Shown one piece after another: positions 17,101 through 52,723 of a stretch of DNA of 64,000 nt. The stretch is taken from assembly GCA_013112585.1 (NCBI GenBank), contig JABFGH010000006.1:1-64000 (forward strand). The letters run 5' to 3'. Numbering within the stretch: position 1 is the stretch's first letter; every line of letters starts with the position of its first letter. The translations under genes and the position numbers were made by a program. The notes beneath the pieces are model-generated. The model worked only from the letters and a program-made list of their open reading frames with translations, was not told the DNA's origin and searched no databases. The stretch comes from Ignavibacteriota bacterium (GTDB taxonomy: Bacteria > Bacteroidota > Ignavibacteria > Ignavibacteriales > Melioribacteraceae).

Positions 17101-17750
17101 ATTTTGTAGGCTACGCCGAATTTAAGGGTCGTGTGATACACAAAGTTTTGGATGAAGAAATTGATATACAGAACTTAAATAAGCGTGTAGATGAATTATT
17201 GGAAAAAGAATTTTATAACAGGAGTACATCAAAAAAAGTATTCGAGTCGGTTAAAAATTCCATATTAAATGATCTTCAGCAATTTTATAGATCTCAAACA
17301 TATAAAGAGCTTATTGAGTTTAGTAATTATAAAAATGAACACGAGATATATCTTAAACTAAATGATTTTTACCTTTATGGAATAATAGATAAACTGATAA
17401 TTGATAATAAAAAAATAATTATTGTTGATTACAAAACCGACAACATAAAAGAAGAGGAAATAAATTCCAGAGGCGAGCTTTACCTTTCGCAGCTTAAATT
17501 TTATGCGGTACTTATAAATGAAATTTATAATCCAAATGAAATTGAACTAAGAATTGTATTTACAAAATTTCCCGATATAAATTTTGCGAAGGGGATTACA
17601 GAAAAAGAAATAAATGAGTTTCGAGAATATATAAAGAGTGTTGTTCTCTCAATTCGTAATAACAATTATCCCCCAGATTTAAATCATTGTATTAAATGCC
17701 ACTATGCTGTTGATGGGAAGAAATGTGTGAAAGCAAATAGCAAAACATAA
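14184..17750 (+). CDS. AddA-like UvrD-family helicase with C-terminal PD-(D/E)XK nuclease
   Basis: 1188 residues. Superfamily 1A helicase motifs: Walker A ANAGSGKT (23-30), AITFTDKAAGEL, VMIDEYQDTNEIQYE (about 380), VVGDEKQSIYMFRDAD (about 410), TIHQAKGLEFNTVFLF (about 731) and LLYVGVTRA (about 808). The nuclease domain follows with GRVIH, GIIDKL, IVDYKTD and QLKFYA, the RecB/AddA catalytic set. Cys931 (TQCPLKYQL) together with Cys1169, Cys1172 and Cys1181 near the C-terminus form the C...CxxC...C arrangement that holds an Fe-S cluster in AddB and Cas4 nucleases. It should process double-strand breaks for RecA. No AddB gene is adjacent, although addB normally precedes addA. The last codons (ANSKT) lie within the flanking tandem repeat. 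Confidence 0.9.
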   Translation: MEKILTPYQKDALHYNKHIALTANAGSGKTFVLSRRYVDIAQKEKIPLRKIVAITFTDKAAGELNKNIAEVVEKRLNNSTNPGEIKTLEKIRRQLVSANISTIHSFCIEVLKEFSPEAGLDANFVPVDQTTADELIELSIEETLNQLLLNDSELDVKNLIRFFGSQKILSIEIKKLLKNRKAITDLYEKEYSKDESEIAEWFRNNFREKFKYLFIDKAADIKSLLAEINNYVLSLKPDNPIAAIASELIEKINSSLSPFEFIELTNQIAEQICTKAGGIKARSYLPNDEREDLTSQINEAENLISDILKIEIPDNSEEVEKLLAVYGKEIASLFILAADEYTSKKEERGYLDFEDILHHTKRIIGKPEVQEYLSSNYEYVMIDEYQDTNEIQYEIFMPILNNLKSGNLFVVGDEKQSIYMFRDADIKVFMRTKKEIEQAVKKDGILSLPHSFRVSPPIAAFTNEVFKELFKEPDIELNEVEHSNLVCARPEETIGSVQMIISDEEGEPEAELVAKKIITLMSDQNPDFGLNDIAILCRKRSVFAELEKAFSNHGIPHTVVAGKGFYQKQIVNDIYNYLSFLINRDDNTSLVGILRAPFFTLSDTEVFAISLEKGKTFFEKIINYSAENNKYNKIIITLTDHISIAQSSEFSFILRKIISDTEYLPVIAARENYKQELSNLEKLFKVAKSFEQQGFKSLYDFVDYLKTSIQNLVDEGQAAINEDEQSVKIMTIHQAKGLEFNTVFLFRCNDTSEEDRIKSRSIVVDKDFGILTKVPNANNYFEDFVSAPINGIYNYVSNRKNIGELKRLLYVGVTRAVQNLIITGTIKNGAAKKKSFLDFLTSALEIDLEAADHKIKTNLEFMKLKGEEYEFFDKKIEFDISIERVIESKINSLKISGKEKLGNKTYLLNHIEDKSEEEIISATKLAVYTQCPLKYQLTYELGYSDINSIFELTKSESEPADFEFQINENDDDDFVGYAEFKGRVIHKVLDEEIDIQNLNKRVDELLEKEFYNRSTSKKVFESVKNSILNDLQQFYRSQTYKELIEFSNYKNEHEIYLKLNDFYLYGIIDKLIIDNKKIIIVDYKTDNIKEEEINSRGELYLSQLKFYAVLINEIYNPNEIELRIVFTKFPDINFAKGITEKEINEFREYIKSVVLSIRNNNYPPDLNHCIKCHYAVDGKKCVKANSKT

Positions 17751-17880
17751 ATTTCAAAATCCAAATGACAAAGCCCAAATAGCAAATCACAAATTTCAAA
17801 ACCCAAATAACAAACTCCAAATAACAAACTTCAAATGACAATCTCAAAATTTCAAACTCCAAATTCAAAACTCAAGCCAT
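17733..17880. repeat. imperfect AAATTTCAAA/CCAAAT tandem array
   Basis: Short, variable units of the form CAAAT-RnCAAA-YYCCAAAT follow each other for about 150 bases. The array starts inside the last codons of the helicase-nuclease gene and supplies its stop. The units are too short and irregular for CRISPR, and there are no conserved repeats with spacers. Confidence 0.75.
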
Positions 17881-17965
17881 ATCATCCAGATACTAGCAAC
17901 CAGTAACCAGTATCTAGCCCTGCCCGCCGTTTTATTTGGCGGGATCAAGTATCAAGTATCCAGAA
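17881..17965. repeat. dispersed element with CCCGCC/GGCGGG palindrome
   Basis: A run of CCAG-type words (ATCCAGATACTAGCAACCAG) is followed by CCCGCC (17923-17928), a 9-base loop, GGCGGG (17938-17943), then AAGTATCCAG. The same arrangement, with CCCACC/GGTGGG instead, lies inside the RND pump gene at 43553-43630. Confidence 0.75.
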
Positions 17966-18174
17966 AAGGACATCACCTCTTAAACTCTGATATTTTGGAT
18001 TTGAATTTTTTACAATTATTATTAAATTAATCCAGCGGGTTTTTTACAGAGGATTAAAAGGAAAAAATTTTAGAGCAAAGAGAGGAGAATAATATGCACT
18101 ACCCCCCCCCAAGAAATACACAAGAAGATTTAAGATTAAGGATTAGCGATTTTCGATTTTTTAAGTTTTTATCT

Positions 18175-18285: not shown

Positions 18286-20511
18286 AATATAAGTATTGAA
18301 AAAGGAGCAGAGTACGGTACAATCCTTGATTCTGTTTCTGCAGATACGGCAGATGTTTTTACAGATATTTATAAGAACTTTAAGTTTATTGCAAAAGACA
18401 GCATTGATGTTAGTTCAGCGGAAATATCAATTAGAGTTTCAACAATAATTGATAACGGCGGAATAATATTTTCAAAGTCGGTAAAGAATAAAGATAAACA
18501 ACACAAATTAAACATTGCCGATAGAGAAGAAACTAATGAAAGAATGAAAGTAATAAAAAAAATAGAAAGACTGAACAAGACGAAAGGAAGAATAGAAAAT
18601 CCGGCAATAGAGTTTATAATTATTCCATCAGAAGGCGGTGAGGAAATATTTGGTATTGGGAAGGCGGAAATAAAGAAACCTGCCGTGTTTTATATAAAGG
18701 CAAATTTTACCGAACCGGAATTTGAGGTGGGCGATACTTTGGATGTAATTGTAAAAAAAGTTGATGAGTTTGGAAATGAAAGCTCTTTTGCAGACAGTAC
18801 CGATTTTGAAGTAGGAATAGTAGAAGGCTGCGATATAGGCAATATACTTAAACCCGATGGAGAAGAGGGACAGTACTTTTTGAGCATGAAAATGCCCATT
18901 AAATTTATTGTTGCTGACTCACTAGAAACAGATAGTACAAAAGTAATACTTAGAGTTGGAATAGAAAGTACTGATGATACAACATATCTGCCTTATTCTG
19001 AATTTTTACAGAATAATAAAATGACTGAAAAAGCAAATAGTCAAAAAACTAAAAGTAATAAAAATGATGGGGCTAGTTTTGCTGAAGATGATATAACTTT
19101 TCAATCTTGCAGTATTCAAGATTTTATGACTGATGCCATTGATACGCCAGAAGCAGAATTAGTAGAGATCATAGAAATAATGCTGGGTGAAACAAAGTAC
19201 TTTGGATTACAAATGAAAGGTGAAGGAACAAGCGCTGAATACAAAATATGCGAAGTTGAAACTGAATATGGAAATGCACCGGTTTTCCCCGAGGATGCCG
19301 ATGGATGGATTTGGCAGAAAACTAAAACTGTTTGGGGAGATGATCCAGCTGAAGTCGTAGATGAAGGTGGAGCCTCAGGTGTCTATTGGGAGAAAAAGTA
19401 TCCACTTTTTAATGGAAAAAGTTTCAAAAAGATGGAAAACTTGAATGATGGTTTGATACGTGTAATCGGCAGATATTGGGAAGAAGGAAAAGAAGCTAAT
19501 TATAAGGTTAAATTAACTGCAAATGATGGAGCGCACTATAAAACAATAATTGTGAAAGTTGTTAAACCAAATGATTTATTAAGCGATGATGAATCTATCA
19601 GTTATAAATGGGCTAAGGATATAAGAAATGATGACTTGAATATAGATGATTTCCTAATTGAAAATGGCGGAAAACATGGAATTCTACCCCAACTATTAAA
19701 AGGTCAAATATTTCAAGAGGCAATAAGGGAAAATGATAAATTTTGGCCGTCATATCGGTATGAACCGTGGCAGGATATCAGGTTTAGGAATCAAAAAAAT
19801 CAAGATAATGTAGAATATTATTTGAAACAGCCATATTGGGTGGATGCAAATGGGATGGGGCTAGAATCTGGCGGGGAACCAGTTCCAATCGAACATCAAA
19901 ATATTCGTCCTATCTTAAATTATTCAACATCAACTCCATATCCAAATAATCCAATGAAAATCGGAGAGTATGTTTCTGATAATTGGGCGCAATATTATGT
20001 AGGGTCTTCTTCTAGTTTGAACAGAAAATTTTCGAAACACCCGCTTTATGGGCCAAATGAAGTTCAAGTTATTTGGAATTATCTTTCTAAGTACTATGGT
20101 AAAAGGGATAATAAGACAGACGCAATATTTCAATCAGAGTATTTTGTAAAACAGTTTTTAAAAGATAATTACATTGAATTTGCTCAAACAAGAAAAGCCT
20201 CATCCTACGGGTATTTTCAGATGTTATATACAACAGCTATAACCGGAAAATTTAAATATCCAAGAAGGTTAGGGAACTCTCCTGCTCCGGAAAAATTATC
20301 AGATCATGAAATTGCAAAAGAATATGTGATGAATCATCTTCTTCAAAATGTAAACATAAAGCTTAGAGGAAAGAATGAGAGTTATAGCGATAATGATTGG
20401 ACAGATGGTTTTGAAAAAATATGGTTGGAGAGTTATCGCTTATATAATGGTGCGGATGATTATGCAGAAAGCATAATCCGTAATTCTAAAAAGTTTTCGC
20501 CTAAACTATAG
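18286..20511 (+). CDS. lytic-transglycosylase-like protein with missing N-terminus (5' truncated)
   Basis: The frame is open from 18286 to TAG 20511, about 741 codons. The first ATG is only at 18544, yet the 86 codons before it read as normal protein (GTILDSVSADTADVFTDIY and onwards). No signal peptide or start with a ribosome site is present, so the gene appears to have lost its 5' end to the repeat-rich DNA upstream. The N-terminal half looks like beta-rich repeats. Residues near the C-terminus resemble a lysozyme/SLT fold: GQIFQEAIREN (candidate catalytic Glu), ASSYGYFQML and LYNGADDYAESIIRN correspond to the E, S-x-G-x-x-Q and YNxG...Y positions of soluble lytic transglycosylases. Whether it is still expressed, from 18544 or otherwise, is unclear. 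Confidence 0.6.
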   Translation, partial: NISIEKGAEYGTILDSVSADTADVFTDIYKNFKFIAKDSIDVSSAEISIRVSTIIDNGGIIFSKSVKNKDKQHKLNIADREETNERMKVIKKIERLNKTKGRIENPAIEFIIIPSEGGEEIFGIGKAEIKKPAVFYIKANFTEPEFEVGDTLDVIVKKVDEFGNESSFADSTDFEVGIVEGCDIGNILKPDGEEGQYFLSMKMPIKFIVADSLETDSTKVILRVGIESTDDTTYLPYSEFLQNNKMTEKANSQKTKSNKNDGASFAEDDITFQSCSIQDFMTDAIDTPEAELVEIIEIMLGETKYFGLQMKGEGTSAEYKICEVETEYGNAPVFPEDADGWIWQKTKTVWGDDPAEVVDEGGASGVYWEKKYPLFNGKSFKKMENLNDGLIRVIGRYWEEGKEANYKVKLTANDGAHYKTIIVKVVKPNDLLSDDESISYKWAKDIRNDDLNIDDFLIENGGKHGILPQLLKGQIFQEAIRENDKFWPSYRYEPWQDIRFRNQKNQDNVEYYLKQPYWVDANGMGLESGGEPVPIEHQNIRPILNYSTSTPYPNNPMKIGEYVSDNWAQYYVGSSSSLNRKFSKHPLYGPNEVQVIWNYLSKYYGKRDNKTDAIFQSEYFVKQFLKDNYIEFAQTRKASSYGYFQMLYTTAITGKFKYPRRLGNSPAPEKLSDHEIAKEYVMNHLLQNVNIKLRGKNESYSDNDWTDGFEKIWLESYRLYNGADDYAESIIRNSKKFSPKL

Positions 20512-23555: not shown

Positions 23556-23614
23556 GAGGAGCAGAATTAAGAAGTCAGAATTCAGAAATCAGAAGATAAG
23601 ATTTTTAGTTTTTA

Positions 23615-30540: not shown

Positions 30541-30680
30541 TTATTGGTTGCAGGTTTCAAGTTTGCAGGTTGCAGGTTTCAAGTTTGCAGGTTGCAGGTT
30601 GAAAAGATTGAATGGTTGCATGGTTGAATGGTTGCATGGTTGAATGGTTGCATGGTTGAATGGTTGAATGGTTGCAAGGA
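30541..30680. repeat. tandem repeats GGTTGCAGGTTTCAAGTTTGCA and GGTTGAATGGTTGCAT
   Basis: Two neighbouring arrays: units of CAGGTTTCAAGTTTGCAGGTTG, then 15-16-base units of ATGGTTGAATGGTTGC, at least six in a row. Units touch without spacers, which excludes CRISPR. The array starts one base after the stop of the upstream gene. Confidence 0.85.
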
Positions 30681-43116: not shown

Positions 43117-46100
43117 TTGTCAATAACATCAATTTCTATATCGCGCCCGGTAACAGTAACAATGTTCTTCCTCGGCATTGGGTTACTTGGCATATTCTCC
43201 TTCAGCCAATTAGGCATTGACCTTTTGCCAAATGTAAACCTACCCCATTTAATAGTTCAAACAACATACCCGAATGCAAGTCCGGAAGAAGTAGAAAAAT
43301 TAGTTTCAGAGCCGTTAGAGTCCGCAGTAGGAACAGTTCCCGGTGTTAAGAAGATAGCGTCTGTATCAAAAGAAGGTATATCGGTTATATCAGTTGACTT
43401 TATTTGGGGCAGCAATATGGATATAGCATTACTTACACTGCGTGAGAAGTTAGATAATATAAGATTTGTATTGCCTGAAGAAGCTGGACGCCCGGTAATA
43501 ATAAGAGCAGACCCCTCGGCATCACCAATAATTAGCATAGCATTAACGTTTGAAAGACAGAATTCAGAAGACAGACCTGCCCACCGTCCTTTTGGTGGGA
43601 TTCAGAATCCAGAAACCAGCATCCAGTATGTTGATCACGATTCGCCTTACGGAGAAATTAAAAGATTAATTGATTTGAAAGAAGCCGCAAGAGTAATTTT
43701 TAAGCGCAGATTAGAACAATTAGATGGAGTTGCACAAACGGTAGTTACCGGCGGATTGGAACGTGAAATTTTGGTTGAAGCTGAACCGGAAAAGCTGGAT
43801 GCCTACAATATTACCTTTAATGAAATTGAAAGCTCTTTAAAATCTTCAAATATAAGTATGCCCGCAGGTTCAATAATGAAAGGGCTATTCCGTTATTCAC
43901 TTAGAATACTTGGTGAGTATGACAATATAAATGAAATTAAAAACACTGTAGTAAAATATAATAAAAACGGTAATGCAATTTTACTTTCGGATGTAGCAAT
44001 TGTTACGGAAAATTTTAAGGAAAGAGAAGGCTTAACCCGGTTAAATGGTTCTGAAACAGTTGGTCTTTTAGTTTATAAAGAATCCGATGCTAATACAGTT
44101 TCAATTTCAAAAACTATTAAAGAAACAATTGAAATTTTACAAACAGAATATCCTGAGTTTAATTTAATAGTTGTTTCGGATCAATCCGGTTTTATTGAAG
44201 ATGCAATAGAAAATGTAAAACAAGAAATTTTATACGGCGGTTTACTTGCTGTATTTGTCTTGTTCTTCTTTCTCGGTAACTTAAGGAATGTTTTTATAAT
44301 CGGTATTACAATTCCGGCTTCTTTTGTTCTTACTATACTTTTAATGTATCTGTTCAAAATAAATTTCAATATTATTTCATTGGGTGGAATTGCCGTAGGC
44401 GTTGGAATGCTGCTTGACAATGCAATTATTGTTATTGAAAATATTGTAAGGTACAGAGAGCAGGGTTTAACTATAAGGCAGGCTGCGTTAAAAGGTTCCG
44501 GTGAAGTAACAATGCCGATAGTTGCAGCAACATTAACTACTATTGCAGTTTTTTTACCTTTAATTTTTGTTAAAGGAATTGCGGGCGAATTATTTAAAGA
44601 TCAATCGTATGCAATAGCTTTTTCATTGGGCGCTTCAATAATTACTGCGGTAACTTTAGTGCCAATGCTTGCCGGACGTGAGAAATTTTTTACAATAAAA
44701 AATAAAGCAAGGTATCAAAAAGATTATCTTTTCATTAAACGCCCGGTGAATAAAAACATATTTAAGAGAATACTATTTTGGCTCGGTTTTCCTTTCGTTC
44801 TTATTGTAAGAACTATAACATTTTTATTCTTTAAAATTAGTATTTCAATCTCAAAATATTTTTCTACTTACTTTAAAAAATTTTATAAAATTGCAAATAA
44901 ATTGTTAGACAAACTAATAGATAAGTATGAGTTATTACTCGAATGGTCATTAAATAATAAAAAAACCGTACTTGTAATTACCTTGCTGCTATTGGCTTTA
45001 ACAATTTTTGCAGCAATAGATATTAAGAAAGAATTTATTCCGCCAACAGACCAAGAAGAATTTATTATCGAATTAAATTACCCTAAAGGAACATCGCTAA
45101 AAGGTAATTCAGAGTTAACTTCTGAAATCGAAAAATCGATTTTGAAAATAGAGCATGTTAAAAATGTAGTTTCAAATATTGGGCGGGTAAATGAATTTGA
45201 TTTTCTTAACAAAGAGCAGCATTCTGTTAATAAAACTAATTTAATCATTAAGTTAGATTCATATAAAAGTTATAATAAAGTAGAGGCAAAGTTAAAACAG
45301 GTATTTACAAATCTCGGCACTATCTCATACTCAATAAAACAGGTCAAAACAACTTATTCCGAGTTATTACAGCCATCTGAAAATGATGTAGTTATAAAAA
45401 TAAAAAATAATAATCTCGATAAAGCATTTGCCGCAGCAAGTACTTTAATAGATAAAATTAATAGAAGTAATATCGAAGGTATATCAAATTTAAGAATTGG
45501 CGTTGATAAAGGTTCGCCGGAATTTAGAATTACAATTGACAATTATAAATGCAATGCCTACGGTGTAAGTATTGGTAAGGTGGCAGAAAGATTAGCCTAT
45601 TTAGTAAAAGGAAAAGAAGCAACATTTTTTTCAGATTTTGATAAGAAAGTTGCTATCAATTTAAGAACCTTAAGTACTGCACGCGATGATATTGATGATA
45701 TTTTAGACCAGTATTTAATTGTAGGCGATACTGAAATTCCAATTAAAAATTTAATTAGATTTGAAAAAACAGAAAGCTATAATGAAATTTGGCGCGAAGA
45801 ACAATCCAGAACAATATATGTTTTTGCAGATACAAAGGGTATTGGCGTAGATGAAGCTGTTGATAATATTGATAGAGTGATCAGCAAAATGCCGGCGGCA
45901 AGTGGTCAAATAATTAGTGTTGGCGGTGCTAATGAAGAAATTCGCGATTCATTTAAGCAATTGTACACTGCATTGTTAATATCGGTATTTTTAATGTATA
46001 TGATTCTTGCTATGGAATTTGAATCATTTTTATTTCCGTTTATAATTATTTTTTCTGTTCCTTTAGGATTGGTAGGCGGAATTCTTACGTTGTATTTATT

Positions 46101-46455
46101 GGGTGAAAGTATTAGTATTATTTCAATTATGGGTTTAATAATATTGGTTGGTATTGCCGATAATGATGCCGTGGTTAAAGTGGAATTTATTTTACGAAAA
46201 CGGAGGGAAGGGTTAAATATTCATGATGCAATTGTGCAGGCAGGTAAAGACCGGTTCCGCCCAATTGTTATGAACTCATTAACGGTTATGTTTGCATTAA
46301 TACCAATGATAGTAGGCATTGGAGCGGGAACACAATTAAGAATATCACTTTCGCTGGCTATTGCAGGCGGGCTTTTTTCAGCTACTTTTTTAACGTTAAT
46401 AATTATCCCGGTATTATATACTTATTTAGAAGGATGGTCAAAAAAAGAATTTTAG
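43117..46455 (+). CDS. RND efflux pump inner-membrane protein (AcrB-type) with in-frame repeat insertion
   Basis: 1112 residues, TTG start, 12 TM helices in two halves. The N-terminal ISISRPVTVTMFFLGI, PNVNLPHLIVQTTYPNASPEEVE and GVGMLLDNAIIVIENI (TM4 with the proton-relay Asp) are RND/HAE1 features. The second half has ILVGIADNDAVVKVEFIL. It exports hydrophobic compounds or lipids with the adaptor at 46478. About 27 residues between IALTFE and YGEIKRLIDLKEA (RQNSEDRPAHRPFGGIQNPE and on) do not fit the family and are encoded by a dispersed repeat. No TolC gene is adjacent. Confidence 0.92.
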   Translation: MSITSISISRPVTVTMFFLGIGLLGIFSFSQLGIDLLPNVNLPHLIVQTTYPNASPEEVEKLVSEPLESAVGTVPGVKKIASVSKEGISVISVDFIWGSNMDIALLTLREKLDNIRFVLPEEAGRPVIIRADPSASPIISIALTFERQNSEDRPAHRPFGGIQNPETSIQYVDHDSPYGEIKRLIDLKEAARVIFKRRLEQLDGVAQTVVTGGLEREILVEAEPEKLDAYNITFNEIESSLKSSNISMPAGSIMKGLFRYSLRILGEYDNINEIKNTVVKYNKNGNAILLSDVAIVTENFKEREGLTRLNGSETVGLLVYKESDANTVSISKTIKETIEILQTEYPEFNLIVVSDQSGFIEDAIENVKQEILYGGLLAVFVLFFFLGNLRNVFIIGITIPASFVLTILLMYLFKINFNIISLGGIAVGVGMLLDNAIIVIENIVRYREQGLTIRQAALKGSGEVTMPIVAATLTTIAVFLPLIFVKGIAGELFKDQSYAIAFSLGASIITAVTLVPMLAGREKFFTIKNKARYQKDYLFIKRPVNKNIFKRILFWLGFPFVLIVRTITFLFFKISISISKYFSTYFKKFYKIANKLLDKLIDKYELLLEWSLNNKKTVLVITLLLLALTIFAAIDIKKEFIPPTDQEEFIIELNYPKGTSLKGNSELTSEIEKSILKIEHVKNVVSNIGRVNEFDFLNKEQHSVNKTNLIIKLDSYKSYNKVEAKLKQVFTNLGTISYSIKQVKTTYSELLQPSENDVVIKIKNNNLDKAFAAASTLIDKINRSNIEGISNLRIGVDKGSPEFRITIDNYKCNAYGVSIGKVAERLAYLVKGKEATFFSDFDKKVAINLRTLSTARDDIDDILDQYLIVGDTEIPIKNLIRFEKTESYNEIWREEQSRTIYVFADTKGIGVDEAVDNIDRVISKMPAASGQIISVGGANEEIRDSFKQLYTALLISVFLMYMILAMEFESFLFPFIIIFSVPLGLVGGILTLYLLGESISIISIMGLIILVGIADNDAVVKVEFILRKRREGLNIHDAIVQAGKDRFRPIVMNSLTVMFALIPMIVGIGAGTQLRISLSLAIAGGLFSATFLTLIIIPVLYTYLEGWSKKEF
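43553..43630. repeat. dispersed palindromic element inserted in frame in the RND pump gene
   Basis: CAGAATTCAGAAGACAGA words, the palindrome CCCACC (43580-43585) / GGTGGG (43594-43599), then ATTCAGAATCCAGAAACCAG words. Same layout as 17881-17965. The core differs by a paired change (CCCACC/GGTGGG against CCCGCC/GGCGGG). CCGTCCTTTTGG of the loop is the reverse complement of CCAAAAGGACGG at 52289-52300. Confidence 0.8.
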
Positions 46456-47692: not shown

Positions 47693-47735
47693 ATACCGGC
47701 AGTAATAAGAGCTTAAAATATTGAGTGATTTTATT

Positions 47736-48764
47736 ATGAAAAAAAATATAAAAACCAATGAATACAGGTTATTTCTAAAAAGCCTTAAAGAACGAATACA
47801 TTCAGCCCAGTATGAAGCATTAAAAGCAGTAAATAAAGAACTGATAAATCTCTATTGGGATATTGGAAAAATGATTGTTGAGCAGCAGGAAAAATTTAGC
47901 TGGGGCAAAGCAGTCGTAGATAATATTGCAGAAGATTTACAGATCGACTTCCCTGGTATCTCAGGCTTTTCTTCAAGAAATCTTTGGTATATGCGTAACT
48001 TTTATCTCAATTATAAAGACAATGAAATTCTGCAACCAATGGTTGCAGAAATAAGCTGGACAAAAAATGTTGTGATTTTTGAAAAATGTAAAGACGATTT
48101 AGAAAGAGAATTTTATATAAAGATGACTAAAAAATTTGGCTGGTCTAAAAATGTTTTAATTCATCAGATTGAAAATCAATCATACGAAAAGTATTTAACT
48201 AACCAGACAAACTTTAATGAAGCATTACCCGATAAGTATAAAAACCAGGCTAAATTAGCAGTTAAAGATGAATATACATTTGATTTTTTAGAGCTATCGG
48301 AAGAACACACAGAGCATGAACTTGAGTTGGAGTTAGTGAATAATGTTAGAAAGTTTTTAATTGAAATGGGCGGTCATTTTGCTTTCATCGGTAATCAGTA
48401 TAGGTTAGAGGTTGGTGATGAAGAATACTTTATCGATTTATTATTATTCCATAGAAAACTAAAATGTTTAGTAGCCGTTGAATTAAAGATAGGTAAGTTT
48501 ATACCGGAATATACCGGCAAAATGCAATTCTATTTATCTGTGCTTAATGATAAGGTAAAACTTGATGATGAAAATCCATCAATAGGAATAATTATTTGTA
48601 AGGAGAAAAACAGACTTATTGTTGATTACGCATTAAAGGATACTAAACAGCCGATTGGAATAACGGAGTATAAAATTACCAATCGTTTACCTAAGGACTT
48701 AAAAAAATATCTGCCCTCTATAAGTGAAATAAAAGAAAAGATAAAACAGTTAGAATTGAATTAA
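47736..48764 (+). CDS. YhcG/DUF1016-family protein with PD-(D/E)XK nuclease domain
   Basis: 342 residues from ATG 47736; a TTG at 47721 is in frame but less likely. The N-terminal DUF1016 domain reads NKELINLYWDIGKMI, WGKAVVDNIAEDL, GFSSRNLWYMRNFY and EISWTKNVVIFEK. The C-terminal half has FIDLLLFHRKLKCLVAVELKIGKF, the D...ExK catalytic core, and YTGKMQFYLSVL. The family is linked to restriction-like and Holliday-junction-type nucleases and is frequently mobile. It sits between the adaptor and second pump of an efflux operon, where it has no obvious job; it probably arrived by insertion. Confidence 0.9.
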   Translation: MKKNIKTNEYRLFLKSLKERIHSAQYEALKAVNKELINLYWDIGKMIVEQQEKFSWGKAVVDNIAEDLQIDFPGISGFSSRNLWYMRNFYLNYKDNEILQPMVAEISWTKNVVIFEKCKDDLEREFYIKMTKKFGWSKNVLIHQIENQSYEKYLTNQTNFNEALPDKYKNQAKLAVKDEYTFDFLELSEEHTEHELELELVNNVRKFLIEMGGHFAFIGNQYRLEVGDEEYFIDLLLFHRKLKCLVAVELKIGKFIPEYTGKMQFYLSVLNDKVKLDDENPSIGIIICKEKNRLIVDYALKDTKQPIGITEYKITNRLPKDLKKYLPSISEIKEKIKQLELN

Positions 48765-48813: not shown

Positions 48814-51800
48814 TTGAAAAAGATATTTTACATATTTTTAACACGCCCTGTTACGGCGGCAATGTTTTTTTTTACAATAGTTGTTTTAGGCATAGCCGCT
48901 TTTTTTAATCTCCCGCTCGAACTTTCACCTCATGTAGAATTTCCGAAGTTGACAGTTAGTATTTATTGGCATAACGTTTCGCCCGAGGCAGTTGAGTCAT
49001 TTGTGACTTCCCCGATAGAATCAGAACTGGCAGGTATAAGGGGCGTTAAGGAAATCAAATCACGCTCTTCCGAAGGGTCGGCTTGGGTAAGTATTGAGTT
49101 TTATCCTGATGTAGATATTGATTTTGCGAGGATAGAAATTAATGAAAAAATATCTGCCTTAAAAGATGAACTGCCCTATGGTGTTTCGCCGCCGAGAGTT
49201 TCCTCCTATGTACCGGAAGACCTGCGCGATTTGCAGGGCTTTATAACTTACACACTTTCGAGTAATGTGAGCGCAAATAAAATACGTAAGTATATTCAAG
49301 AAAATATGCTCTACTCAATTATGTCGTTAAACGGAATTCAGGATGTTTCTATTAGCGGCGGTAATGAACGAGAAATAAGTTTTATCATTGATTATGAAAA
49401 AGCTAAAAATCTTAATATCACTAATGAGGAAATCACTAAAAGTATAGCTGACCTGCAGTATGCGGCATCATTAGGAAATGTATCAAAAAACGGCAGGGTG
49501 TTTATTCTAAAATTAAGCAGTAAAATTGAAAGTATAGATCATTTTAAAGATCATGCATTAAAAATAAATGAGAACGGCACAGTTATTAAACTAAGTGATA
49601 TTGGAATTGTGATTGATGATTATAAGGAACCGAACAGCTATTATAGAATAAATGGAAAAGAAACAGTTTCGTTAATTATTAGTAAAGAACCAGGTACTAA
49701 TACGCTTAAAGTTGCCGAAAGCGTTTATGAAAAAATAAATGAACTTGAAAAAAAACTGCCTGCCGGCTACTCAATTATTAAAGAGATAGATAAAAGTGAA
49801 TCAATACGAGCGGAGTTAAGCGACCTTTCCCAAAATGCTGTTTTTTCTTTAATAATTATTCTTGTAGTGTTACTGCTGATTTTCCGTTCTTTAAAAGTAT
49901 CTATAATTATAGTTGCCTCAATTATTTTTTCGTTATTGTTTTCATTTCTGCTCTTCTTCTTATTTAACATTCCGCTTAACATTTTAACTATTTCGGCATT
50001 TATACTTGGCTTTGGTTTTATGGTGGATAATTCAATTGTTGTGATTGATTTTATTGAACAAAATTATTCTAATGACGGAATCAACAGATTAACTGTAATT
50101 TTAAAAAATATATTCAAACCGGTTTTTGTTTCAACGCTTACAACCATTGCAGTATTTATTCCATTACTTTTTTTAACCGGCGAACTCAGGCTTTATTTTG
50201 AGCAGTTTGCTTTGGGAATTGTGTTTACTTTATTTGCTTCGCTTATAGTCTCCTTCACTATAATACCTATGCTCTATATTCGTTTTATTAAAATAGAAAA
50301 ACAAAAAGTTCTTAAACCTAAAATTAGTTTCCACGAAAAATTCTATTTATTTATTACGTCTAAAATATTCAGATGGAAAAAAGTAAGTATTTTTATTTTA
50401 GTAATGATAATAGGATTACCTGTTTGGCTGCTACCTGCAAGAATAGAAACACCGGTAATTGGACCGGTTTATAATTTCATTTTTGATTCCGATACGTTTG
50501 CAGAAATTAAACCATACTTCAATTATATCGCCGGAGGTAGTTTAAATCTTTTCTTTAATCATATAAACAGAGGTGAAGTTTGGAAGTTCGGTGAAGAGAC
50601 CTACATTTATATAAGACTGGAATTACCCAACGGAAATACAATTAATAGAATAAACGAATTGACAAAAGATTTTGAACGTGAAATTTTAAGGTATAGAGAT
50701 AACATAAAAAATTTAACAGCAAATGTACGCAGCGAAGAAAGTGCAAACTTAAGAGTAGAGTTTACTGCTAAACAAAGTGAAGCGGCATTCCCATATATAC
50801 TTAAAAATTATTTAACGTCTTATGCGGCAAGACTTGGCGGGTTGAATGTTTCGGTAATTGGTTTTGGTCCCGGCTTTTCAAATTCAGGCTATACCTCGGG
50901 TAACTTTGCTGTAAAAATAAAAGGATTTAATTATAAAAAAGTTAGGCAGCTTGCAGAAGAATTTAGAAACAGAATTGTACGAAACCCGAGGATTGACGAT
51001 GTGGATATTGATAAATCGGAATTTTATTGGGCAAAAGATATTTATGAAGTTATTGCCGCAATAGATAGAAAAAAACTTCAGCAGTATAATATTTCACCTC
51101 AGGAAATTATTTTAAATATCTCTAAAAACACTCAAGGCAATTTAAGCTGGAATTCTTTTAATATCGATAACGATGAAGTTAGGTATAATATTAAATTTTC
51201 AAATTATAAAAATATACAGCTTGATGAATTGGAAAATATTATTCTTGGAACAGCTAACGGGGTTGTGCTTAAAGTAAAGGACTTAATAAATTTTGATGTA
51301 CAAAAAGTGCTCTCAACTATCAATAGAGAAAACCAGCAATATGTTAGGTATGTAACTTTTGATTACAAAGGTCCCTACAAGTATGGGAATGAATTTGTTA
51401 ACTCTTCAATTAATAATATGAATATTGCTGAAGGTTATTCAATCGAAAAGAGGGGATTTAGGTTTATGTTTGGTGCAGAAGAGGAGATTGATGTTTGGAA
51501 TATTATGTTCTTTGCTCTCGTATTAATTTTTATGATAACAGCAAGTTTGTTTGAATCTTTTAGAAAACCAATTATAATTATTACGGCTGTACCATTCGCA
51601 ATTATTGGTACTTTTTTCCTTTTTTATTTCGGGGAGTTTAATCTTGATAGAGGCGCTTACGCCGGGTTATTATTGCTGATAGGGTTGGTTGTAAATAATT
51701 CAATTATTCTTGTTGATCATATTTCTAATAGTGTGAATAGTATTGATTATAAAAAAATATCAGAACAGAGTACACAAAGACTGCGCCCAATTTTTACAAC

Positions 51801-51963
51801 TAGTTTAACTACTATTGCAGCTTTAATACCTTTATTGCTGGGTGTGGAATCTACATTTTGGAAAAGTTTAAGCTTAAGTGTTGTGGGCGGTATATTTTTA
51901 TCATCCGTTATTGTAATTCTCTTTGTGCCTCTATTTTATTACCTCCTTTTTAAGAGGGACTAA
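48814..51963 (+). CDS. second RND-family efflux pump protein
   Basis: 1049 residues, TTG start. FLTRPVTAAMFFFTIVVLG, FNLPLELSPHVEFPKLTVSI, FGFMVDNSIVVIDFIEQ (TM4 Asp) and IGLVVNNSIILVDHI mark an RND pump. The two pumps of the operon share family features but are distinct, as in MdtBC-type pairs in which two pump proteins form one trimer. The second half lacks the usual acidic residue (VVNNS instead of VxxDN/A), which would fit a non-proton-carrying partner. That is inference. No repeat insertion is seen in this copy. Confidence 0.9.
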   Translation: MKKIFYIFLTRPVTAAMFFFTIVVLGIAAFFNLPLELSPHVEFPKLTVSIYWHNVSPEAVESFVTSPIESELAGIRGVKEIKSRSSEGSAWVSIEFYPDVDIDFARIEINEKISALKDELPYGVSPPRVSSYVPEDLRDLQGFITYTLSSNVSANKIRKYIQENMLYSIMSLNGIQDVSISGGNEREISFIIDYEKAKNLNITNEEITKSIADLQYAASLGNVSKNGRVFILKLSSKIESIDHFKDHALKINENGTVIKLSDIGIVIDDYKEPNSYYRINGKETVSLIISKEPGTNTLKVAESVYEKINELEKKLPAGYSIIKEIDKSESIRAELSDLSQNAVFSLIIILVVLLLIFRSLKVSIIIVASIIFSLLFSFLLFFLFNIPLNILTISAFILGFGFMVDNSIVVIDFIEQNYSNDGINRLTVILKNIFKPVFVSTLTTIAVFIPLLFLTGELRLYFEQFALGIVFTLFASLIVSFTIIPMLYIRFIKIEKQKVLKPKISFHEKFYLFITSKIFRWKKVSIFILVMIIGLPVWLLPARIETPVIGPVYNFIFDSDTFAEIKPYFNYIAGGSLNLFFNHINRGEVWKFGEETYIYIRLELPNGNTINRINELTKDFEREILRYRDNIKNLTANVRSEESANLRVEFTAKQSEAAFPYILKNYLTSYAARLGGLNVSVIGFGPGFSNSGYTSGNFAVKIKGFNYKKVRQLAEEFRNRIVRNPRIDDVDIDKSEFYWAKDIYEVIAAIDRKKLQQYNISPQEIILNISKNTQGNLSWNSFNIDNDEVRYNIKFSNYKNIQLDELENIILGTANGVVLKVKDLINFDVQKVLSTINRENQQYVRYVTFDYKGPYKYGNEFVNSSINNMNIAEGYSIEKRGFRFMFGAEEEIDVWNIMFFALVLIFMITASLFESFRKPIIIITAVPFAIIGTFFLFYFGEFNLDRGAYAGLLLLIGLVVNNSIILVDHISNSVNSIDYKKISEQSTQRLRPIFTTSLTTIAALIPLLLGVESTFWKSLSLSVVGGIFLSSVIVILFVPLFYYLLFKRD

Positions 51964-51989: not shown

Positions 51990-52255
51990 AAAAACTTTTC
52001 ACGCAAAGCCCGCAAAGAAAGCACTGATTTGCTTTCCCTAAAAATAGATGCTAATTAATTGAGATTACTTGATAATAATTAAAACTAAACTTTAGAAAAC
52101 AGAAAGAATAATTTTAAAACTTTGCGTCTTAGCGTCTTGGCGTGCAAGGCTTTTAAAAAACTTTTCACGCAAAGTCCGCAAAGAAAGCACTGATCTGCTT
52201 ATCCTAAAATGGATAATAATTAATTGAGATTAATAATTATTAATTAATAATAAAC
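51990..52255. repeat. direct repeat of CTTTTCACGCAAAGYCCGCAAAG segment
   Basis: About 75 bases beginning CTTTTCACGCAAAG at 51995 recur at 52160 with few changes, each ending in AATTAATTGAGATTA. Between them is GCGTCTTAGCGTCTTGGCGTG. Dispersed words of the same type lie at 22840 and 35180. Confidence 0.8.
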
Positions 52256-52283
52256 TCTGGGGTGAGGCGATGTATGCTTGATG

Positions 52284-52381
52284 CCTGCCAAAAGGACGGC
52301 GAGAAGTCCGGATATTTAATTCTAAATTCTAACTTCTATCTTAAAACTTCTGGCTACTAAATTCTAACTCCTAACTCCTAA
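52284..52381. repeat. CCAAAAGGACGG element and TAAATTCTAACTTCT array
   Basis: GCCTGCCAAAAGGACGGCGAG is an inverted relative of the RND insertion core. It is followed by short words TAAATTCTAACT / CTCCTAACTCCTAAC up to the stop of the STAS gene, which is read from the other strand. Confidence 0.65.
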
Positions 52382-52723
52382 CTAATTATAACTCTCAATC
52401 GCCTCATCAAGATCATTGTAAAGCTTAAATGTTTTTGCGATGCTGTTTAATTCAAACAACGACCAGACCGGGGAATATTTTGATCTCACCAATCTAATAT
52501 CTCCGCCGCATGATGTACACTCACGTAAGGATTTAACCAACTCCGCTAAAAATGAATAATCCATCCAAACCAAAGCCCGGCAGTCAATTACAAAATTGTA
52601 CATACCTAATGATAACTGCTCATTCAGGCTTTCTCGAAATATATTTGCTTGTTCTCTTGTTGCTTTGCCCAGGTTTAGTGTTAGTAGTGTTGCTTTTTCT
52701 AAGGATTTTGTTTGAAGCATCAT
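52382..52723 (-). CDS. STAS-domain protein (anti-sigma antagonist-like)
   Basis: 113 residues from the ATG at 52723, after AAAGG; the frame extends to a TTG at 52738. It is a single STAS domain: VIDCRALVWMDYSFLAELVKSLREC, and GGDIRLVRSK. In SpoIIAA-type antagonists the regulated serine follows Asp (DSSG); here the sequence is DYSF, so the residue next to Asp is tyrosine and only the second serine remains. Phospho-control by a cognate kinase may therefore be altered. No kinase or sigma gene is adjacent. Confidence 0.82.
   Translation of the reverse strand: MMLQTKSLEKATLLTLNLGKATREQANIFRESLNEQLSLGMYNFVIDCRALVWMDYSFLAELVKSLRECTSCGGDIRLVRSKYSPVWSLFELNSIAKTFKLYNDLDEAIESYN

Follow-up and report, generated by a model that had tools for sequence, protein, structure and literature searches.

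An in-frame repeat array in an RND pump

The question raised by this locus is how a palindromic repeat came to be read in frame within an intact efflux pump gene. The locus lies in a stretch of 64,000 nucleotides from an Ignavibacteriota bacterium (contig JABFGH010000006.1), hereafter the window, and the features concerned are the following:

43117-46455, forward strand: RND (AcrB/AcrD/AcrF, PF00873) efflux pump gene, 1,112 aa, intact frame
43557-43629, forward strand: heptamer array and hairpin within the pump linker
43576-43599, forward strand: palindrome CCTGCCCACC GTCCTTTT GGTGGG, stem 43580-43585 / 43594-43599
17881-17965, forward strand: intergenic copy of the pump-array unit, hairpin 17919-17943, CCCGCC/GGCGGG
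48814-51963, forward strand: second RND pump gene, in-window control, judged by eye from its translation

The pump frame matched PF00873 with an E-value of 6e-211 and had no internal stop. Within it, the array of 73 nt encoded about 24 residues and presented, from 5′ to 3′, the order ACAGAAT TCAGAAG ACAGA CCTGCCCACC GTCCTTTT GGTGGG AT TCAGAAT CCAGAAA CCAGCAT CCAGTAT. Words of 7 bases flanked a six-pair palindrome on either side, its core (43580-43599) having the arms CCCACC and GGTGGG and an 8-nt loop, with CCAG/TCAG words around it, and the final TAT of the array doubled as the conserved aromatic codon preceding VDH. The palindrome that the first-pass annotation had placed in frame within an RND pump was therefore confirmed in an uninterrupted ORF.

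The same annotation had stated that about 78 bases sat where RND pumps have no insert. This was true of solved pumps, MdtB having about 16 residues at the position where the host pump has 49, and also held for the other RND pump of the window, whose corresponding loop, judged by eye, had no insert, but not of the orthologues: in all the Ignavibacteria orthologues of the pump, a linker of 12-53 residues was found at the array position. As regards size, the array (73 nt) was longer than the 48 nt by which the host linker exceeds the shortest orthologous ones, so that clean insertion into the shortest form cannot account for it and some of an older linker must have given way to it. Moreover, the residues at the linker differed among orthologues, with identities of 8-33% vs. 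60-78% for the remainder of the pump in the pairs compared, and the nearest orthologue (66% identity) had heptamers of its own in the linker. Since all the orthologues carry this hypervariable linker, the array sits in a pre-existing one and did not create it. Every orthologous pump frame was open. The AlphaFold model had a pLDDT of 36, too poor to judge linker disorder or exposure. A 347-residue protein resembling YhcG/DUF1016-type nucleases, as judged by eye, is encoded at 47721-48764, with the pump adaptor gene on one side and the second RND pump gene on the other.

A dispersed repeat family in the host genome

The layout that had been noticed between genes at 17881-17965 was present, with the CCCGCC/GGCGGG stem, between the ORFs ending at 17750 and starting at 18544. 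Furthermore, in the host genome (G000, 4.94 Mb), the unit [CT]TGCCC[GA]CC...TTGG[CT]GGG within CCAG/TCAG words was found at about 10 further sites besides the pump copy, none of them in a recognisable gene; apart from the two copies in the window, these were on contigs C3, C9, C13 (two), C18, C31, C35, C38 and C54. The junctions were near-constant among the host copies (CAG[AC][CT]TGCCC ... GGCGGGA[AT]), with the pattern CAG[AC][CT]TGCCC...GGCGGGAT[CT]CAG common to the other genomic copies, and a longer-loop variant with an additional stem (TCCGTC-GATT-GACGGA) appeared on C13 and C18. The pump copy matches the intergenic units in the hairpin core and in the words alike. Rfam gave no match above a curated threshold.

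Every orthologue has a linker and low-complexity linkers can appear repetitive, as would be expected if the stretch were ordinary coding sequence resembling intergenic repeats by chance. However, in the 21-nt core, the sole difference between the pump hairpin and the C13:15894 copy (GCCCGCCGTCCTTTTGGCGGG) was one compensating pair, with CCAG words following on the 3′ side, and the pattern CCAGNAWCCAG had 76 matches in the host genome vs. 3 for its reversed form. Because the unit recurs at about 10 places and the word pattern is this enriched, the pump array is not due to chance, a reading that the genome-wide copies refute and that retains a negligible probability.

The host arrays were nearly all outside genes, and the pump was the only convincing array-bearing gene among the CCAG matches. 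Matches in an IS110-like and a PilB-like gene (both named by eye) looked like ordinary codons and were set aside, as were the remaining CCAG-bearing open frames, which were unconvincing as genes and repeat-derived. An element of the form GGTTGTTTCGATACAT..CCGC..ACTCAACCACC was seen repeatedly adjoining CCAG arrays (L076, L079, L081, L134, L142 and L143).

Pairing and folding of the hairpin

The first-pass annotation had read a paired change in the stem as the mark of a preserved hairpin. The change itself is real, the pump stem CCCACC/GGTGGG differing from the intergenic CCCGCC/GGCGGG by an A-T to G-C double change, but preservation of the hairpin was not borne out. Among 22 hairpin copies from four genomes, one of the six pairs showed double changes, one a one-sided change and four were invariant. 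The covariation score was reached by 9 out of 500 shuffles, a weak test, as these copies were gathered by patterns that fix most stem bases. Moreover, the 78-nt pump strand folded no better than its shuffles (z of −0.76). A compensatory change in one pair out of six is thus weak evidence that a hairpin may have been preserved. The stronger result, missed by the first-pass annotation, is a periodicity of 7 bases that recurs in the orthologues.

Seven-base periodicity in orthologous linkers

The self-similarity of the linker DNA was scored at lags 4-16 in 16 orthologues, with 2,000 dinucleotide shuffles for each. Lag 7 was significant (each P ≤ 0.002) in six of the 16 linkers, those of the host genome, G017, G217, G238, G296 and G094, and the only other lag reaching 0.002 was 14, a multiple of 7. 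In the host pump, the lag-7 score of the linker was reached by none of the 2,000 shuffles and surpassed that of all remaining windows of the gene, which further opposes chance resemblance. The other five linkers likewise scored higher at lag 7 than any window in the rest of their genes. Since 7 is not divisible by 3, the period is an effect at the DNA level and cannot be caused by selection for a repeated peptide. The words varied among the six (CCAGNAW, AAGTCGA, ACTCTAC, GAGRYGA and CAACATT, TCAAGAA, TTCAGAA). On a protein tree, the six pumps fell into about three groups, although the deep forks were weakly supported. G238 and G296 belong to one genus and have unrelated linker words, which indicates fast turnover.

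A unit of 7 bases would also suit a contingency locus, in which adding or dropping a single word moves the reading frame and thereby turns the pump off or on, and slippage on bacterial heptamer repeats is a topic in passages of PMC4679880. Nevertheless, the words were degenerate, with few perfect repeats, and along with the open frames of all the orthologues, no length variants were seen. A switch of this kind is therefore regarded as very unlikely.

Heptamer arrays are a general feature of the sampled genomes. A sample of about 1.28 Mb drawn from five genomes contained 28 arrays at lag 7 vs. 0-9 at lags 5, 6 and 8-11; in the window, at the same threshold, there were 7 at lag 7 and 0-3 at other lags. 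Inside genes, repeat units whose length is not divisible by three should be less frequent. The 28 arrays comprised 23 intergenic ones and five in ORFs, two of the latter being the pump linker and another lying in a type IX secretion C-terminal domain (assigned by eye). Other 7-nt-periodic stretches of the window were located at 17847-17875, 18124-18161, 23562-23598, 30546-30604 and 52227-52391, with words that included CAAANNN, TCAGAAT, GCAGGTT and TTCTAAC.

Linker words and genomic repeats

Whole-genome pattern searches, which replaced k-mer sampling, covered the words of the host, G017, G217 and G238 linkers. The k-mer counts, taken from samples of 3-10% of a genome, had shown no enrichment of the linkers, the samples being too small and composition-biased. 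Strict CCAG double words numbered 56 in the host genome (control, 0), 29 in G014 and 0-11 in 14 of the 15 relatives. The G017 linker holds AAGTCGA words, and AGTCGANAGTCG occurred 38 times in the G017 genome and in none of nine others. For G217, whose linker holds ACTCNAN words, six triples were found in its own genome and one across nine others, with a noisy reversed control. On these counts, the linker words are the genome's own repeats, clearly in the host and G017 and weakly in G217.

In the forms searched, neither the G238 linker words nor the CCTCTCC palindrome of the G022 linker had a second copy in their own genomes. Both were thus dropped as captured host repeats, and they may have arisen in place.

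Comparison with known repeat systems

In-frame palindromes within genes are already known. In the passages of PMC3733652 that describe them, Rickettsia palindromic elements (RPEs) are mostly intergenic palindromic repeats, some of which lie in frame in protein genes; the host palindrome is likewise mostly intergenic, with one copy in frame in a protein gene and the frame kept. Unlike RPEs, here judged by description only, it has no CGTC end tag, is embedded in arrays of 7-nt words and lies in a linker that takes different repeats in different species. The same passages report intragenic GTAG/CGTC REPs from several species, in frame and with more than half encoding 20-30 residues, and different REPs at about the same recB site in two Xanthomonas species. 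The latter offer the closest parallel to repeats recurring at a single site. The host unit resembles REP elements in being a palindrome of 20-40 bp scattered through the spaces between genes. However, its stem has no GTAG/CGTC tag, the aligned ends being YTG and mostly AT (CGTC appeared in some aligned copies only across stem and loop), and the material recurring in the pump linker consists mainly of lineage-private heptamer words.

In most of the bacterial genomes surveyed, heptanucleotides form the most frequent class of longer simple repeats, and slippage is a mechanism proposed for them (Mrazek et al. 2007, cited in a passage of PMC4679880), an intergenic example in the same source being TAACTGA of Beggiatoaceae. 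The arrays described here share the period of 7, the mostly intergenic location and the lineage-specific words, but differ in their degenerate words, in having several word families per genome and in lying in frame within a gene. In the open-access literature, no description was found of a single protein loop being filled recurrently with heptamer arrays private to each lineage.

Origin of the repeat DNA in the linker

The pump stretch is probably a copy of the dispersed intergenic repeat, in a tolerant loop that repeatedly gains in-frame repeat DNA by ectopic copying and/or slippage. Repeat DNA would reach the linker through ectopic copying or recombination and/or polymerase slippage on 7-nt words, the latter being enough for some orthologous linkers. 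For the host copy, ectopic copying would be needed because the hairpin would not arise from slippage alone; since hairpin and words match the intergenic units together, the entire unit was most likely brought in at once, through ectopic recombination or template switching. Selection would remove frame-breaking versions and tolerate nearly any in-frame sequence. The loop would thus turn over fast and fill with repeat DNA, and a benefit to the pump is probably unneeded. Possible, though doubtful, is the reading in which the loop is a sink repeatedly filled in frame with lineage-private degenerate 7-nt DNA by an active, word-independent process that spreads arrays, coding loops included.

The first-pass annotation had proposed a mobile palindrome family, of which the repeat family with its palindrome stood, while the palindrome itself as the mobile unit was left unproven. 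Neither of the findings that it had named as refuting was obtained, since the orthologues differ in their linker residues and the genome holds further copies. Under that proposal, a dedicated REP- or RPE-like palindrome, mobilised by a tyrosine transposase or one of another type, would have inserted in the pump, with the CCAG words as flanks or target. The core [CT]TGCCCGCC-N8-GGCGGG was indeed found in other genera outside CCAG words, inside different heptamer arrays at L087 and L095 and without arrays at L085, L089 and L090-L093, and the host genome had eight Y1-transposase matches. In contrast, the in-gene copy arrives with heptamers and not as the palindrome alone, other orthologous linkers have heptamers without the host palindrome, and there were no GTAG/CGTC end tags; neither a target duplication nor, among orthologues of at most 66% identity, a clean empty site could be demonstrated. 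Furthermore, the RAYT-like genes of the host are flanked by other hairpins and not, as in REP systems, by the repeat of interest; the nearest of these hairpins, CCCCGCCATAAATGGCGGGG at L126, has stem bases in common with the pump palindrome but differs in loop and flanks. RAYT mobilisation of the pump palindrome was therefore rejected, and insertion of a dedicated mobile palindrome is considered unlikely. The Y1-transposase (RAYT-like) genes had matched hairpins of their own on both sides at L126 (1228-1248 and 2048-2068), L127, L128 and L133, as in the pair CCCCGCCATAAATGGCGGGG / CCCCGCCATTCATGGCGGGG.

Copying of intergenic repeat DNA into a tolerant loop would make this linker a natural, replicated case in which non-coding repeat DNA turns into protein sequence at a single fixed position, the repeats differing by species, so that comparison could test how repeats give rise to new protein segments. 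It also draws attention to the abundant degenerate 7-nt arrays of Ignavibacteria, for whose generating mechanism no explanation was found.

Other palindromic repeats

Palindromes were also seen in frame elsewhere. In a distant RND paralogue (L169, genome G299), GGGTTAAAACCC and CCACGCCCTGAAGGGCGTGG are read in frame in the equivalent linker. In the host genome, the palindrome GCCCCGCCACGGCGGGCAGGC, with a GTAG...CTAC-like sequence, is read in frame around position 1501 of L001 (G000:C5:79996-80013), where a frame of 313 residues has its C-terminal (T9SS-type) domain, and is likely a second in-frame palindrome of this genome. Finally, a separate composite palindromic repeat with the parts CACGGTGCTTCAGCGCCGTG, TTGGGTTTTAACCCAA, CCTGCCCACCGGCAAAGGCGGGC and GACGGTG was present in at least seven copies, near position 1501 of L004, L005, L006 and L009-L012.
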